Source: Microbispora hainanensis
GTDB taxonomy: Bacteria > Actinomycetota > Actinomycetes > Streptosporangiales > Streptosporangiaceae
DNA: 64,000 nt
Assembly (NCBI RefSeq): GCF_006874475.1
Contig: NZ_VIRM01000017.1
Location: 1-64,000 of the forward strand
Direction: 5' to 3'
Below, in pieces: positions 51,906-57,444 of the stretch. Every line of letters starts with the position of its first letter. The first letter of the stretch is position 1. A program made the position numbers and the translations under genes. The notes under the pieces are model-generated. The model was given only the letters and a program-made list of their open reading frames with translations. It made no database searches and was not told where the DNA came from.

Positions 51906-51949
51906 TATAACGTTGTGCGACGGATCTGTCACGCGATGTAATCACATCG
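51906..51949 (+). promoter_or_regulatory. Likely promoter and dyad of the Gln-rich gene
   Basis: TATAAC at 51906-51911 is a strong -10 for such GC-rich DNA. Downstream, in what would be the 5' leader, CGATGT-AATC-ACATCG (51934-51949) is a perfect dyad, suited to a repressor or an RNA hairpin. No good -35 was found, so an alternative sigma factor is possible. Confidence 0.5.
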
Positions 51950-51986
51950 GCGATGGGTCGGACCTACTGGCTCCGAAGGAGTGAAT

Positions 51987-52604
51987 ATGACGTTCACAGC
52001 TATGAATCCCACGACCATGGCGACCACGCTGGGGTACGGCGCTCAGCAGCAGATCTCGCCCCTGCAGCAGCTCGGTCAGCAGATCCCGGGCATGCAGCAC
52101 CAGCTGTCGCCGCTCGCGATGATCCAGCAGCAGGAGGAGCAGATCCTCCCGCAGGAGCACCTCGTGAGCCCGGTGACCTTCTGGACCAAGGTCGCGCGGT
52201 GCAGCGTGCGTTACGGCGCTCCCGCGGCCCGCCAGATGCTGGAGGGCGTGCTCTACCAGCACCAGGTCCGCGAGCAGATCCAGCAGCAGGTTCAGCAGCA
52301 GGTGCTCCCGCCGCAGGTTCTGCAGGCCCTCCAGGCCATCCAGGCCCAGGCCCAGCAGATCCCGCAGATTTACGGCCAGCCGTACGCCACCCAGGCGTAC
52401 GCGCAGCACCCCGGCCAGCAGGCCCTCCAGCTCGGCATGCCTCAGCACCTTCAGGCGGCTTACGGCCAGCAGGTCCCGCTGACCATGCAGCCGCTGTCGC
52501 AGGTCTACGGCCAGGTCTACGGCCAGGGCTACGGCCAGGGCTACGGCCAGCTGCACCAGCAGGCCGCTCAGCAGGTCCCGGTGCCGGCCGGTGCCGCACT
52601 CTGA
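51987..52604 (+). CDS. Gln-rich, prion-like protein with YGQ repeats
   Basis: 205 residues, about a quarter of them Gln, and almost no charge outside the centre. Layout: Gln/Pro/Leu-rich N-terminus (LGYGAQQQISPLQQLGQQIP), a short ordinary segment around 60-95 (PVTFWTKVARCSVRYGAPAA, RQMLEGVLYQHQV), poly-Gln helices (REQIQQQVQQQVLPPQVLQA), then a tail rich in Y-G-Q triplets (VYGQVYGQGYGQGYGQ). The composition is that of prion-like or FUS-type condensing domains. No signal peptide or membrane helix. ATG 51987 is 5 nt after AAGGAG; an earlier GTG overlaps that site. Not recognised; structural or condensate role is inference from composition and from its operon with a subtilase. Confidence 0.85.
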   Translation: MTFTAMNPTTMATTLGYGAQQQISPLQQLGQQIPGMQHQLSPLAMIQQQEEQILPQEHLVSPVTFWTKVARCSVRYGAPAARQMLEGVLYQHQVREQIQQQVQQQVLPPQVLQALQAIQAQAQQIPQIYGQPYATQAYAQHPGQQALQLGMPQHLQAAYGQQVPLTMQPLSQVYGQVYGQGYGQGYGQLHQQAAQQVPVPAGAAL

Positions 52605-52617
52605 TCGGAGGAACACC

Positions 52618-52911
52618 GTGGAGTCGATGGGTCCCGGGATGGGTCCGGTGACGCCCCCGGCCGTGGGAGTCGCGACGGGGCATCCGGCGCCGGTCGCGCC
52701 GCTTCAGGTGCACTGCGCCGTGACGCTCCAGCGGCTGTACGGCTGGCTGCAGGCGTCACTCCCGCAGGCGCCCCAGGTCGCGGGGATCATCCCGCTGCTG
52801 GTACAGGCGGTACAGCTGTACCGGGCCGGGCGGTACGACGCGTGCCTGGCGCAGATCCAGTTCGCGCTCGGCGCCGTCGCCCCTGGACGGCTCACGGTTC
52901 CACTGCTGTGA
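52618..52911 (+). CDS. Small helical protein in the Gln-rich/subtilase cassette
   Basis: 97 residues. After a Gly/Pro/Val N-terminus (MGPGMGPVTPPAVGVATGHP) comes a helical part: LQVHCAVTLQRLYGWLQASL, IIPLLVQAVQLYRAGRYDAC, LAQIQFALGAV. The second helix pair (A-x-x-L-Y-R-A-G-R-Y-D-A) resembles one TPR unit. GTG 52618 follows CGGAGG by 7 nt and lies 13 bp after the Gln-rich gene stop, so they share a transcript. Not recognised. An adaptor between the Gln-rich protein and the protease would fit, but is unproven. Confidence 0.75.
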   Translation: MESMGPGMGPVTPPAVGVATGHPAPVAPLQVHCAVTLQRLYGWLQASLPQAPQVAGIIPLLVQAVQLYRAGRYDACLAQIQFALGAVAPGRLTVPLL

Positions 52912-52926
52912 CGTGATCACCTCGGT

Positions 52927-52957
52927 GGCCCGGACCGGTCGGCGGCCGGTCCGGGCC
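52927..52957 (+). terminator. Strong hairpin between the small gene and the subtilase
   Basis: GGCCCGGACCGG (52927-52938) pairs perfectly with CCGGTCCGGGCC (52946-52957) around a 7-nt loop. It lies 16 bp after the small gene stop and 110 bp before the subtilase start. A partial terminator here would make the first two proteins more abundant than the protease. Confidence 0.7.
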
Positions 52958-53067
52958 CCCGCCGTCCCGAGACCGGCGAAATGTGATGACAGAGCCTGAA
53001 CTGCCGGCCGTGCCCCACGGGGCGCGGCCGGCCACACCAGCCTGAGCTGGGGAGAGTCGAGACGTTT

Positions 53068-55245
53068 GTGACCAGTAACGACAAGCCCAAGGACGGAAGC
53101 GAGGAGCCGCGCCCGGCGTCCCCGCGAGGGCGGCAGGCGTCCCGCCAGGCGCCGCAGCCGGTGGAGCCCCGGCCACGGCGCTACATGGTGGCCGCGCTGC
53201 CCCAGCCGCATCCCGCGGCGCCGGGAGCAGCCGTGCCGGCTCTCGATGGCGACACGGTGCGCAGGCTGCTGGAGGACGACCCCGAGGTGCGCGTGCTGCG
53301 CCGCCTGCGGGGAACGGCGGGGAACCCGGGGGCTCAGGCTCCCGGGTTCCCCGCTGTGGTCGTGGCGGAGATGACCGCCGAGCACGTCGAGGCGCTGCGG
53401 CGGCAGTATCCGCAGCTCTACTTCGAACGCGACCGGCTGCTCACCTACAGCGACGTGCCCCAGCCGCCGCGCAGGCGGCGGTCCGCCCCGGCGGTGGTGC
53501 CGCCGGGCGTGGAGAGCACGTTCACCTTCCTGGTCAGGGACGCGGACGGCACGCCGCTGCCCGGCGCGAGCATCCTGGTGACCGGGCACGGCTGGCCCGC
53601 CCAGACGTCCACGGGGGCCGACGGCCGCGCGGTGGTCACGATGGTCGGGGAGACCCCGGAGTCGATCAACGGGGTGACGGTCCGGCCGCGCTCCGGCTAC
53701 TGGAGCGTCCACATCGACCGTCCCGCCCTGTCCACGACCCGGGACAACCTGATCGAGCCGGTGCGCCTGTCGGAGACCTTCGCCGGGTTCCCCGGCAGGC
53801 AGGTCTTCGGCTGGGGGCAGCAGGCGATGAACCTCGACCGCCTGCCGCCCACGCTGCGCGGCGCGGGGGTCAGGATCGCCATCATCGACTCCGGGGCCGA
53901 CGTACGGCACCCCGACCTGCGCGACCGCGTCCACGCCGGCGTCGACCTCGTCGGCGGCGAGCCGGACGGCTGGTCCGTCGACGCCGCCTATCACGGCTCC
54001 CACTGCGCGGCCGTCGTCTCGGGGGCCGACGACGGCCGGGGTGTCGTCGGCTTCGCCGTCGAGGCCGAGGTGCACGTCTGCAAGATCTTCCCGGGCGGGC
54101 GGTTCAGCGACCTGATCGAGGCGCTCGACTACTGCGCCGAGCAGCGGATCGACGTCGTCAACCTGAGCCTGGCGAGCAGGCACCACTCGCCGCTCGTCGC
54201 CGCGAAGATCGAGCAGGCGCGCGAGGCGGGGGTGGCGTGCGTGGTGGCCGCCGGCAACGACGGAGGGCCGGTCGGCTTCCCCGGCATCCTGCCGGGTGTA
54301 CTGACGGTCGCGGCAGTCGGCAAGGCCGACGCGTTCCCGCCCGGCACCGCCCACGAGGCCGAGGTCCGCGGGCCGGTCACGGGCGACGGCTTCTTCTCGC
54401 CGCGCTTCACCTGCCACGGTCCCGAGATCGACGTGTGCGCCCCGGGCGTGGCCGTCCTGTCGGCCGTGCCGCCGGACGGGTACGCCGCACTGGACGGCAC
54501 CTCCATGGCCGCGCCGCACGTCGCCGGCCTCGCGGCCCTGGTGCTCGCTCACCACGGCGACTTCCGGGGTTCCTTCAGCGGACGGGACGCACGGCGGGTC
54601 GATCACCTCTTCCACATCATCAAGTCGAGTTGCGTACCGCTGAACCTCGGCGACCTCCACCGCACCGGGGCGGGGATGCCGAACGCGCTGCGCGCCCTCG
54701 CGCCGGCCCTCGCGCAGATCACGCCGGAGCCGGTGGAGGCCGACACGTTGCTCGGTCAGCTCACCGCCGAGATGACCGGCGCCGGACTGCTCGTGCCGGC
54801 GGCCGGAGGGCCGGACGGCGAGCCCGGCCACACGGGGCAGGACGGCCAGGCGGGCCCGGGGGTGCAGCCCGGCATGGCCCCGCAGGCGGCGTACGGCGCG
54901 GGCGGCTCGCCCAACGGGCCGGTGCCCGGCGGTCTCGTCACCGGCGGCCGGCGCGGGCGCACCACGACGACCGGCGGCACCTCGCCGACCGGCCGGGGCG
55001 GCACGGGAAGCCGGGGCAAGCGAGGTGAGACGGCCGCCGACCGGCCGTACGCCACCGGGCCCGGCAGAGGCCGGACGCCCGGCGGCGCGGCGGGCGACGT
55101 CCCGGTGCCTCCCCGTACGGCGAACGGAACGCCTGCGGGCGGGACCGGCCCGGCCGGAGGCGATGAGGCCGCCATGGCCTGGCTCAGGGAGGAGATGCGG
55201 GCTGCGGGGCTCCTCGGCGAGGACCCGGCCGACCCCGCGGAATGA
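53068..55245 (+). CDS. S8 subtilisin-like protease without signal peptide
   Basis: 725 residues. 1-40 disordered; 40-130 a likely inhibitor-I9-type prodomain (YMVAALPQPHPAAPG to ERDRLLTYSDV); 150-222 an Ig-like/carboxypeptidase-regulatory fold (TFTFLVRDADGTPLPGASIL); 265-500 the subtilase core with Asp274 (AIIDSGADVRHPDL), His309 (AYHGSHCAAVVSG), Asn397 (VVAAGNDGG) and Ser479 (DGTSMAAPHVAGLAALV), so active. A ~170-residue Gly/Pro/Thr-rich tail ends in a short helix (AMAWLREEMRAAGLLGED). No signal peptide or anchor, so it should act in the cytoplasm. GTG 53068 follows GGGGAGAG. Third gene of the cassette with the Gln-rich protein. Confidence 0.92.
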   Translation: MTSNDKPKDGSEEPRPASPRGRQASRQAPQPVEPRPRRYMVAALPQPHPAAPGAAVPALDGDTVRRLLEDDPEVRVLRRLRGTAGNPGAQAPGFPAVVVAEMTAEHVEALRRQYPQLYFERDRLLTYSDVPQPPRRRRSAPAVVPPGVESTFTFLVRDADGTPLPGASILVTGHGWPAQTSTGADGRAVVTMVGETPESINGVTVRPRSGYWSVHIDRPALSTTRDNLIEPVRLSETFAGFPGRQVFGWGQQAMNLDRLPPTLRGAGVRIAIIDSGADVRHPDLRDRVHAGVDLVGGEPDGWSVDAAYHGSHCAAVVSGADDGRGVVGFAVEAEVHVCKIFPGGRFSDLIEALDYCAEQRIDVVNLSLASRHHSPLVAAKIEQAREAGVACVVAAGNDGGPVGFPGILPGVLTVAAVGKADAFPPGTAHEAEVRGPVTGDGFFSPRFTCHGPEIDVCAPGVAVLSAVPPDGYAALDGTSMAAPHVAGLAALVLAHHGDFRGSFSGRDARRVDHLFHIIKSSCVPLNLGDLHRTGAGMPNALRALAPALAQITPEPVEADTLLGQLTAEMTGAGLLVPAAGGPDGEPGHTGQDGQAGPGVQPGMAPQAAYGAGGSPNGPVPGGLVTGGRRGRTTTTGGTSPTGRGGTGSRGKRGETAADRPYATGPGRGRTPGGAAGDVPVPPRTANGTPAGGTGPAGGDEAAMAWLREEMRAAGLLGEDPADPAE

Positions 55246-55491: not shown

Positions 55492-55761
55492 TCAGTACGC
55501 CTCGTAGGCGGGACCGGCGAGCTGGGCCACGTCCTCCGCGCCGTCGCCGATGAGTTTCGCCCCCAGGTCGGCGAGGGCCCGTCCGGCCGCCAGCTCGTCA
55601 CCGATCTCGGGCACGGGCCGGTCGGCCGGGTTGCGGCGAGCTCGGCCGACGCTCTCGTGGCGTCGTCCCGCGGGCGTGTAGAGCACGGCGGTCGCGGTGG
55701 TGACGTCGTCGTTGTCGTCCTCGTTCACGAAGATTTCGACGGTCCAGCGTTTCGATTCCAT
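55492..55761 (-). CDS. DUF1876 dormancy-type protein (Rv1738-like)
   Basis: 89 residues of the DUF1876 family: MESKRWTVEIFVNEDDNDDV, TTATAVLYTPAGRRHESVGR, ARRNPADRPVPEIGDELAAG, ALADLGAKLIGDGAEDVAQL. Mycobacterium tuberculosis Rv1738, a DosR-regulon protein with a fold like ribosome hibernation factors, belongs here. So a role in dormancy or translation arrest under hypoxia is plausible. ATG 55761 is 8-9 nt after GGAGG. Divergent from the universal stress gene; a DevR-like box lies between them. Confidence 0.85.
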   Translation of the reverse strand: MESKRWTVEIFVNEDDNDDVTTATAVLYTPAGRRHESVGRARRNPADRPVPEIGDELAAGRALADLGAKLIGDGAEDVAQLAGPAYEAY

Positions 55762-55826
55762 GTCGGACCACCTCCAGGACTCCAGCATCCCTCCCGGCCG
55801 CGTGACCCCGGCAGCGGCCCCGGGCT

Positions 55827-55842
55827 GAGGACCTACGACCCT
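55827..55842. promoter_or_regulatory. Candidate DosR/DevR box
   Basis: GAGGACCTACGACCCT resembles the GGGACCTTCGGCCCT-type site bound by DosR/DevR in actinobacteria (A-G-G-A-C-C ... C-C-C-T). It sits in the 158-bp divergent region between the DUF1876 and universal stress genes, which suits coregulation. The match is by eye only. Confidence 0.4.
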
Positions 55843-55919
55843 GGAGGGGGGCGGCCGCCGGTGGTCACATGGAGGAGGGCTCCAGACGGAACGGCCAGTG
55901 AGGAAGGAAGGAGCGTCCC

Positions 55920-56798
55920 ATGTCCGGCCCGATCATCGTCGGCACCGACGGTTCGCCCGCCGCGACGGCCGCCGTGCGGTGGGCCGCGGACGACGCCGCC
56001 CGCCGCGGCTGCCCGCTGCGCTTCGTCTCCGTCGTGGACCACTGGGCCTACGGCATCCCGAAGTTTCCCACCTCGGGTGGCGACCCGCTCACCGCGCACG
56101 CCGAGCGGGCGCTTGCCGCCGCCGACGCCGTGGCCCGCGAGCGGCAGCCGGACGTCAAGGTCAGTACGGAGATCATCGAGGGCATCCCCTCCCGCGTCCT
56201 GCGGGACAAGGCCAAGGAGGCCGTCGAGATCGTGCTCGGCAGCAGGGGACTGGGCGGCTTCGCCGGCATCGTCCTCGGATCGGTCAGCACCAACGTCGCC
56301 GGGCACGCCCCCTGCCCGGTCGTCGTCGTACGGCCGGGGTGGAGCGGCGAGCGGGGGGAGATCGCGGTGGGCGTGGACGACTCGCCCGAATGCGAGCCCG
56401 CCCTGGCGTACGCCTTCGAGCAGGCCAGGGCACACGGCACCACGCTGCGGGCCGTGCACGCCTGGCACCTGCCCGCCCATCCACTCGCGCCCGAGATCAC
56501 CTATGACGTGGAGGAGGTGCGCGAGGCCCATCAGCGTGTCACGCGGGAGAAGCTGGCGGACCCGCGCAAGCGGTATCCCGACGTGCCGGTGCGCGAGGAG
56601 CTCGCCTACGGACATCCCGTCGACGCGCTCGTCCAGGCGTCACGCACGGCGGGTCTGCTCGTGGTCGGCTCCCACGGCAGGGGCGCGGTGGGCTCGGCGA
56701 TGCTCGGCTCGGTCAGCCGGGGGGTGCTGCACCACGCCGAGTGCCCGGTCGCCGTCGTACGGTCCCCGTCGGCGCCTTCAGCCCCCCTCGTCCCCTGA
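55920..56798 (+). CDS. Universal stress protein, two Usp domains
   Basis: 292 residues, tandem Usp folds. Domain 1: PIIVGTDGSPAATAAVRWAA, ATP-binding VLGSRGLGGFAGIVLGSVST (G-x-x-G-x9-G-S/T). Domain 2: IAVGVDDSPECEPALAYAFE, LVVGSHGRGAVGSAMLGSVS RGV (split), ECPVAVVR. Both nucleotide sites look intact. Two-domain Usps of this kind (for example Rv2623 in mycobacteria) are induced by DosR under hypoxia and bind ATP. ATG 55920 follows GGAAGGAGCG. Divergent from the DUF1876 gene. Confidence 0.92.
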   Translation: MSGPIIVGTDGSPAATAAVRWAADDAARRGCPLRFVSVVDHWAYGIPKFPTSGGDPLTAHAERALAAADAVARERQPDVKVSTEIIEGIPSRVLRDKAKEAVEIVLGSRGLGGFAGIVLGSVSTNVAGHAPCPVVVVRPGWSGERGEIAVGVDDSPECEPALAYAFEQARAHGTTLRAVHAWHLPAHPLAPEITYDVEEVREAHQRVTREKLADPRKRYPDVPVREELAYGHPVDALVQASRTAGLLVVGSHGRGAVGSAMLGSVSRGVLHHAECPVAVVRSPSAPSAPLVP

Positions 56799-56935
56799 GC
56801 CCCCCTCGTCCCCTGAGCCGGACAAGCCTTGAGCCGGAGCCTGCTGCCGGCATTGAGACCGGAGCGAGCCCTTGAGACCGGAGCGAGCCCTGAGCCGGAG
56901 CGAGCCCTGAGCCGGAGTGAGCGCTGAGCCGCCGG
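56780..56935. repeat. Two short tandem repeat arrays after the usp gene
   Basis: An 18-bp unit (AGCCCCCCTCGTCCCCTG) occurs twice at the very end of the gene and just after it. It is followed by about five degenerate 17-18-bp units of GAGCCGGAGCGAGCCCT (GAGACCGGAGCGAGCCCTT in some). The array leads up to the hairpin at 56959. Confidence 0.8.
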
Positions 56936-56958
56936 GCGAACTTCGCGCCGAACGAGCG

Positions 56959-56989
56959 CGGGCCCGTCCGCGCGGCGCGGACGGGCCCG
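56959..56989. terminator. Bidirectional terminator hairpin
   Basis: CGGGCCCGTCCGCG (56959-56972), loop CGG, CGCGGACGGGCCCG (56976-56989): a perfect 14-bp stem between the convergent usp and hsp20 genes. Confidence 0.85.
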
Positions 56990-57000
56990 GTGTGAGCCGC

Positions 57001-57444
57001 TCAGCTCTTCTTCTTCCCCTGCTCGGCCCCCGGCATTTCGATGGGGATGCGCTTGCGCTCCTCCTTCTCATCGGCGAGTCGCACGCTCACCTCGAGGATC
57101 CCCTTGTCGTAGGTGGCCTTCACGTCGTTCTCGTCCGCGTTCGGCGGCAGCATGACCGACCGGGTGAAGGCTCCGTACCGGAACTCGGTGCGGTGCCCCT
57201 GCCGCTCCTCGTGGCGCCGCTCCGCGTGGATGGTCAGCATGCCGTTCGACACGCTGATCTCCACGTCCCTTTCCGGGTCGATCCCGGGTAGTTCGGCGCG
57301 CAGCACGTATCGGCCGTCCTCTACGTAGTCCTCAAGCCGCATCTGCTGTCCGGTCATCGGCCGGAGCGCGGCCAGCGGTGCCTCCAGCAGGTCGAACAGG
57401 TCGGGAACAAGGCCCCTGGACTCACGTCTCATCGGAAGGCTCAT
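57001..57444 (-). CDS. Hsp20/alpha-crystallin small heat-shock protein
   Basis: 147 residues. Alpha-crystallin domain from ~38 to ~130: RLEDYVEDGRYVLRAELPGI, DPERDVEISVSNGMLTIHAE, RRHEERQGHRTEFRYGAFTR, SVMLPPNADENDVKATYDKG, ILEVSVRL. C-terminal ERKRIPIEMPGAEQGKKKS carries the I-P-I motif used for oligomer contacts. ATP-independent holdase chaperone. ATG 57444 is 8 nt after GGAGG; GTG 57453 overlaps that site. It is a relative of HspX, another DosR-regulon product, and stands next to the Usp and DUF1876 genes. Divergent from the cupin gene. Confidence 0.92.
   Translation of the reverse strand: MSLPMRRESRGLVPDLFDLLEAPLAALRPMTGQQMRLEDYVEDGRYVLRAELPGIDPERDVEISVSNGMLTIHAERRHEERQGHRTEFRYGAFTRSVMLPPNADENDVKATYDKGILEVSVRLADEKEERKRIPIEMPGAEQGKKKS

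Follow-up and report, generated by a model that had tools for sequence, protein, structure and literature searches.

Related systems

The subtilases (MEROPS S8; subtilisin) include proteins without a signal peptide, such as the intracellular serine proteases of Bacillus. A signal-less subtilase, here termed P3, is encoded in a 64,000-nucleotide stretch of Microbispora hainanensis DNA (NCBI RefSeq assembly GCF_006874475.1, contig NZ_VIRM01000017.1, positions 1 to 64,000; hereafter the window), as the last of three consecutive plus-strand genes, after those of a Gln-rich protein (P1) and a small helical protein (P2). P3 shares with the subtilases the S8 fold, a pro-domain-like I9 domain and, in the window protein, the D/H/N/S motifs. 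It differs from the usual members by a transthyretin (TTR)-like domain, by a long disordered tail whose end is a conserved helix motif, by having P1 and P2 as regular neighbours, and by the many catalytically dead members of its family.

The Csp (pseudo)proteases, for which we know of no Gln-rich partner, have a different domain make-up, and the window P3 falls far below the cut-offs of their models (CspC 15 bits, cut-off 675; CspBA 25.3 bits, cut-off 1250). In PMC6636752, CspC of Clostridioides difficile is a soluble non-catalytic subtilase-fold protein implicated as a regulatory node. SUB1-ProM is described in PMC6993865 as a stand-alone propeptide-like inhibitor of a Plasmodium subtilase. 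As in that system, a stand-alone pro-domain-like gene adjoins the subtilase gene in some of the cassettes described below; unlike SUB1-ProM, its products are bacterial, about 70-95 amino acids long, devoid of a Pfam I9 match, and inhibitors only putatively.

The anti-phage system IetAS consists of an IetS-type subtilase and the ATPase IetA. P3 reaches 20 bits (4e-5) against IetS, and no ATPase is present among the eight window neighbours scanned; the likeness is limited to a subtilase-type effector and to one distant plasmid relative beside an IetS gene. In that plasmid record (L056 1615-5044, Cupriavidus), the S8 protein next to the IetS-type subtilase resembles P3 from the TTR-like region onward, and both neighbouring S8 proteins match PADLOC subtilase models. 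The vWA-MoxR/FtsH ternary conflict systems are described in PMC7159879. Such systems have vWA, MoxR or FtsH partners, none of which occurs among the same eight neighbours; the match of one I9-like relative to fvmX7 (19.9 bits) stays under the cut-off of 24. Bacterial gasdermin systems place a gasdermin-fold effector beside a protease; the P1s scanned have no match to the gasdermin profile and are of low-complexity composition. Type VII secretion mycosins carry a signal peptide, and assignment of P3 to them (TIGR03921) was rejected (107 bits for a cut-off of 278.75, no hydrophobic N-terminus).

The eukaryotic FUS-type and yeast prion-like domains are Q-rich, with [Y/F]GQ repeats in a sticker-and-spacer arrangement. 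P1 is similar in composition and layout, and no common ancestry is claimed. The subtilase fold, the pro-domain inhibitor and the pseudoprotease are all known in kind; the families and literature searched did not show them combined with a Gln-rich repeat scaffold. To our knowledge, hardly any bacterial case is known of a dedicated Q-rich low-complexity scaffold paired with one fixed enzyme.

Loss of catalysis in the P3 family

The tentatively favoured explanation, judged to be somewhat short of an even chance, is that the cassette encodes a cytoplasmic scaffold-client assembly in which proteolysis would be optional. The window P3 comprises a charged start, an I9-like domain, the TTR-like domain, the S8 domain and a low-complexity tail ending in a predicted helix. 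It matches Pfam Peptidase_S8 at 2e-35 (122.9 bits, cut-off 21.8), possesses the Asp-His-Ser triad and the oxyanion Asn (D274, H309, N397, S479), and is predicted from these residues to be active; its dN/dS is 0.28 in seven Microbispora (21 pairs; all dN/dS values are Nei-Gojobori averages over non-independent pairs). This agrees with the signal-less subtilase with a triad described in an earlier note on this DNA, the lack of a signal being a matter of hydropathy only: over the first 45 residues of the 58 P3s, every 12-residue window stays below a Kyte-Doolittle value of 1.6, a check made without a dedicated predictor and in which the called starts of several relatives fall inside the I9-like domain. 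Neither P3 nor the stand-alone I9-like proteins match Pfam I9, and a profile search of the PDB was likewise devoid of significant matches.

These 58 distinct P3s (61 sequences before removal of identical ones) were aligned at D274, H309, N397 and S479. They comprise the window P3 and those of 11 of 12 named loci (all but L013, which stops short of P3), of two plasmid records and of fetched genome regions. Within the window's family, the Streptosporangiaceae, 23 of the 40 positive genomes were fetched in addition to the window's own; 16 were left out, 13 of them Microbispora, and G133 (L164, a partial match) yielded no usable P3. In Streptomyces, 20 of 21 positive genomes were fetched, G682 and a 32-residue extra match in G657 being omitted. 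As the set is non-random, the counts are tallies of the P3s examined and not rates.

The four positions read DHNS in 29 P3s, DHSS in 4 and otherwise in 25. The triad is kept in 34, while 24 lack at least one of its residues: all 22 two-gene Streptomyces forms and two from Streptosporangiaceae. Eighteen Streptomyces P3s read G-S/T/N-D-G and so retain none of D, H, N and S; four read D-H-D-A/T. The exceptions in the window's family are L075 (DRDS), L077 (DGDG) and L163 (DHDS), the last keeping its triad with N397D as the sole difference. An Asp thus occupies oxyanion position 397 in 25 P3s, the 24 triad-less ones and L163, and in none of the other 33; Ser is found there in four. With N397S counted as intact and N397D as degenerate, here and in the association counts below, the P3 tree requires at least two changes of state, hence two losses, provided that activity was never regained.

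The degenerate Streptomyces P3s look like maintained pseudo-enzymes rather than decaying genes, given that they are under purifying selection (mean dN/dS 0.257 in the 18 fully degenerate P3s, 0.25 in the four DHDA/DHDT ones), that the 18 do not vary at pocket positions 274, 397 and 479, and that P1 is the immediate upstream neighbour, in the same orientation, in 22/22 two-gene cassettes. Since the 18 keep P1 at a P3 dN/dS of 0.26, cutting cannot be the function common to the family. Proteolysis as a family-wide function is therefore strongly argued against by the alignments, and the earlier note's idea of a polymer that activates a protease finds no support as a general mechanism: 24 of the 58 P3s are without a triad residue, P1 is kept beside them, and 18 are under purifying selection. 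The three degenerate P3s tested (L140, L077, L075) still exceed the Pfam S8 cut-off, a warning that Streptomyces genes called peptidases by an S8 profile may not be proteases.

A Gln-rich protein of stickers and spacers

P1 is a real protein under purifying selection where this is best measured, with a dN/dS of 0.37 in seven Microbispora (21 pairs) and of 0.42 in the 18 Streptomyces cassettes with a fully degenerate P3; the Gln-rich frame, on whose conservation the earlier note relied, is thus conserved as protein. Gln makes up 52 of the 205 residues of the window P1, in line with the earlier note, and YGQ units lie at residues 129, 159, 174, 178, 182 and 186; these six [YF]GQ compare with an expectation of 0.22 from shuffles of the protein's own sequence. 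P1-like proteins were collected for 55 of the 58 P3s (median Gln fraction 0.29, range 0.08-0.40), leaving out L073 (contig start, with a visible P1 remnant), L167 (contig end) and L139_3584. These 55 P1s hold 206 [YF]GQ where shuffles predict 19.9, with at least three copies in 38 of them. The fetched loci, a background of cassette flanks and not of whole proteomes, encode 580 distinct proteins of 100 residues or more. Gln reaches 12% or more in 56 of these, which on inspection are P1s with a single exception, a P2.

Between the Q-rich segments lie hydrophobic modules. In the window P1, residues 50-92 evolve more slowly (dN 0.032 in the seven Microbispora) than the remainder of the protein (0.073), and this module is present in two tandem copies in L016. 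Other modules are repeated three to five times: LLHQLVSNAIQQAL three times in L075, PADVVNTIVDL...GILDLF three times with a partial fourth in L078, and LLPLLEKLFSLFQQQ-type repeats five times in L079. A helix module of the EHxVSPxxFW type occurs in single or double copy, and further types are Gly-zippers and, in Streptomyces, coiled-coil-like segments. As judged from these repeats, P1 is of sticker-and-spacer layout with exchangeable stickers; its Q-rich low-complexity composition with aromatic stickers is that of prion-like, phase-separating proteins. This sticker-and-spacer composition, in line with the earlier note's likening of P1 to FUS-type domains, recurs across the family. To note, one Streptomyces locus (L138 5096-7461) encodes two P1 types upstream of a single Ser-to-Ala pseudo-subtilase.

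Distribution and forms of the cassette

On its co-occurrence and gene order, the cassette is not a chance association of neighbours. Of 150 family genomes, 23 carry P2, counting that of the window; they represent 10 of 68 genera, and P3 is directly downstream in 23/23 (20 by neighbour search, three by coordinates). Among 394 genomes of the class (two draws that share handles, treated as one), the P3 N-terminal profile is found in 14 and the P2 profile in 13, all 13 within the 14. The conserved neighbourhood demanded beforehand is thus observed, and since the flanks differ between lineages, it is the cassette itself that is the conserved unit. The P3 without P2 in the class draw belongs to G329 of genus g87, which we take to be Streptomyces; it groups with P3s of the Streptomyces plasmid records L054 and L097 (support 100/100).

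More broadly, P3 is present in 40/297 family and 21/295 Streptomyces genomes, and cassettes are also found on plasmids. P2 is present in 1/290 Streptomyces genomes: that genome, G567 (L139 2712-10639), carries two tandem P2-I9-P3 cassettes with intact triads, unlike its relatives, and a clear P1 for one of them. The three-gene cassette proposed earlier is therefore real in the window and is one of several forms, the others being a two-gene P1-P3 and a four-gene P1-P2-I9-P3 cassette. All 22 P2-less cassettes are degenerate, while 33 of the 36 P2-bearing ones read DHNS or DHSS. In 15 cassettes, all DHNS, a stand-alone I9-like open reading frame (ORF) is inserted between P2 and P3; these ORFs are homologous to the P3 N-terminal domain (hhalign, E 1.8e-12). 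The simplest reading, suggestive only, is that their products would restrain proteolysis. On a Paracoccus plasmid (L055 5294-5545), an 83-residue ORF, pro-domain-like by eye, directly follows a distant S8 relative.

P2 and the tail of P3

The small helical protein of the earlier note is indeed predicted to fold as three helices (residues 27-47, 52-69 and 73-87) by AlphaFold2 (AF2), with a block confidence (pLDDT) of 83-91 over residues 31-80. P2 has weak TPR/MIT-like matches, and its closest relatives are Microbispora proteins (81-96% identical). The P3 tail ends in a helix motif of pattern LxxEMxxAGL (residues 702-716), where AF2 predicts, at low confidence, a helix at residues 698-712. Profiles were used to detect P2 and I9 in the 3 kb that precede each P3, and a loose regular expression to detect the tail motif; P2 and the motif are both present in 36 of the 58 cassettes and both absent in 22, with no mixed case. 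This co-variation is suggestive of P2 docking on the P3 tail helix.

Proposed assembly

What the sequences show directly is the order and co-occurrence of the genes, the selection acting on them, the loss of catalytic residues and the co-variation of motifs. All binding in the assembly that follows is inferred, and so are its clustering, its trigger, its output and the action of the I9-like protein as an inhibitor. P1 would act as a scaffold, with one to five hydrophobic helix modules as stickers and, as spacers between them, Q/G-rich stretches that carry [Y/F]GQ units. P3, with its subtilase fold, its own I9-like pro-domain and its TTR-like domain, would be its constant partner, and the P1-P3 association would be the ancestral job common to all forms. 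In the fuller form, P2 would dock on the conserved helix that ends the disordered P3 tail, and in some lineages the stand-alone I9-like protein would hold the protease in check. Proteolysis would be an optional output, presumably kept in most Streptosporangiaceae forms examined, the window included, and lost at least twice if never regained, most fully in Streptomyces, where a fixed non-catalytic pocket would remain. The window P3 is expected to be a held-back zymogen that P1 clustering may concentrate and release under stress or attack.

Several points weigh against this assembly. The P1-P3 and P2-tail contacts, the clustering and the activity are all deduced from sequence, and AF2 fails on the S8 domain of P3 (pLDDT below 50), so that the catalytic statements come from the alignment alone. 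The P1 modules are so varied that the homology of all P1s is unproven, and the P1 of L076 has only 8% Gln. In the four DHDA/DHDT cassettes the P1 dN/dS rises to 0.81, two P1 types being aligned together there. Constraint on P2 is not demonstrated in the seven Microbispora (dN/dS 0.78, 21 pairs), a high ratio due to the unusually low dS of P2 (0.078 on average, for 0.25 in P3 and 0.17 in P1). This scarcity of silent changes perhaps reflects strong codon selection or a constraint at the RNA level, and the P2 core is alignable across genera nonetheless. The P2/tail and I9/intact associations stem from few evolutionary events and are no more than suggestive, because the 22 P2-less forms group together in the tree (modest support, 91/76) and the window clade has intact proteases without an I9-like ORF. 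Finally, the Rv2632c-like, universal stress protein (Usp) and Hsp20 genes that neighbour the window cassette recur in one clade only (Microbispora, Sphaerimonospora, Planotetraspora).

It is possible, with more doubt than for the assembly itself, that the cassettes represent an unnamed class of bacterial intracellular assembly, in which a Gln-rich repeat scaffold is kept with a dedicated subtilase-fold client while the protease has become a pseudo-enzyme at least twice. If so, a prokaryotic condensate would use the subtilase cleft as its module for peptide binding or sensing, cutting being a lineage-specific output. The P1 system is conserved and present in genetically tractable Streptomyces, and the repeated, fixed loss of catalysis offers a clear test of a protease fold as a pure binding module in a bacterial assembly. 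Two further candidates come from the four-gene form: a stand-alone pro-domain inhibitor of bacterial origin and a docking motif.

Alternative explanations

A polymer-activated switch, in which P1 condensed by a signal gathers P3 zymogens whose pro-domains are removed in trans, so that cellular targets are cut upon stress or conflict, is unlikely; it may well describe the active versions, the window included, but cannot be the mechanism of the family as a whole. D, H and S are intact in 34/58 P3s, that of the window among them; P3 has its own I9-like domain, the stand-alone I9-like protein accompanies only intact P3s (15/15), and the low-complexity P1 bears [YF]GQ units. A conflict role is weakly hinted at by the patchy distribution, the plasmid copies, the tandem cassettes and the distant S8 relative of the Cupriavidus plasmid, which matches the PADLOC "subtilase" model and adjoins an IetS-type defence subtilase (E 4e-112). 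However, 24 of the 58 partners cannot be normal subtilases although P1 persists, with purifying selection in the 18 measured, and no known defence gene occurs among the eight window neighbours scanned with Pfam, no systematic defence search having been made around the cassettes.

P1 could instead be the substrate of P3, which would free amphipathic or Gly-zipper modules as membrane-active peptides, in the manner of gasdermins or bacteriocins, under control of P2 and I9. This explanation, quite unlikely, is retained because of the module repeats and Gly-zippers of P1 relatives. The lineage-dependent modules, set beside a constant P3 and P2, are in line with it, as are matches of single members to the Gly-zipper, microcin V and delta-lysin families of Pfam. 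These matches are all below the curated cut-offs, however, and unrelated families match the same P1s similarly weakly; the module helices are just moderately amphipathic, and the pseudo-P3s cannot cut although P1 is kept in all 22 two-gene cassettes that contain them.

A developmental system is slightly less likely still. Many of these actinobacteria are spore formers, and P1 might be a structural protein of the spore or envelope, for which its Q/Y/G-rich composition would suit a coat protein; an active P3 would be the protease of its maturation, and an inactive one would help assembly or act as a receptor, comparable to CspC. The members found are actinobacterial, most searches having been confined to that class, and an inactive subtilase-fold protein is implicated as a germination signalling node in PMC6636752. 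Yet the accessory distribution is patchy (40/297 and 21/295 genomes, plasmids too), unlike that of a core developmental gene, an export signal is not seen in the hydropathy check, and the Csp models match far under their cut-offs. That P1 and P2 are mere neighbours of an ordinary intracellular degradative subtilase, as the plain S8 family peptidase annotation that single P3s would receive might imply, is scarcely credible given that the genes keep occurring together and in the same order in different genera and families, whose flanks differ.

Layout of the locus

Table 1. Features of the P1-P2-P3 cassette, with positions in the window
Feature	Position	Strand	Basis
Conserved region 5' of P1, with GTCACGCGATGTAATCACA and ribosome-binding site	51906..51986	+	
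P1, Gln-rich low-complexity protein, 205 aa	51987..52604	+	
P1 conserved hydrophobic module, residues 50-92, QEEQILPQEHLVSPVTFWTKVAR...LEGVLYQ	52134..52262	+	Lower dN
P1 cluster of four YGQ units, residues 174-188	52506..52550	+	Enrichment over shuffles
P2, small three-helix protein, 97 aa, GTG start	52618..52911	+	
Strong hairpin in the P2-P3 gap, perfect stem of 14 bp	52924..52959	+	
P3, signal-less subtilase, 725 aa, GTG start	53068..55245	+	
P3 pro-domain-like (I9-like) domain, residues 37-121	53176..53430	+	AF2, beta-alpha-beta-beta-alpha-beta
P3 transthyretin/carboxypeptidase-regulatory-like beta domain, residues 149-229	53512..53754	+	AF2, structure matches
P3 S8 catalytic domain, residues 265-498 (D274, H309, N397, S479)	53860..54561	+	
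P3 helix motif, first copy, LLGQLTAEMTGAGL, residues 561-574	54748..54789	+	
P3 C-terminal helix motif, AMAWLREEMRAAGLL, residues 702-716	55171..55215	+	Loose regular expression; AF2

The hairpin that the earlier note had placed ahead of the protease gene was recovered by computation. It folds at -44.3 kcal/mol (z -3.06) and is identical in 7/7 Microbispora except for one base in L009, which turns a G-U pair into G-C. A T tract is absent, and the terminator scan does not call it terminator-like, so that the high ratio of scaffold to protease which it could set, according to the earlier note, is conjectural.

Upstream of P1, GTCACGCGATGTAATCACA (51928-51946) contains the inverted-repeat-like GATGT-N4-ACATC, and the surrounding region proved conserved when 10 loci of three genera (Microbispora, Sphaerimonospora, Planotetraspora) were aligned. 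With up to three mismatches allowed, the pattern has one match in the window, an exact one, for 0.83 expected. The region may contain an operator.

On the 3' side of the cassette, positions 55492-57444 hold the Rv2632c-like, Usp and Hsp20 genes, a grouping reminiscent of dormancy-type stress gene clusters.

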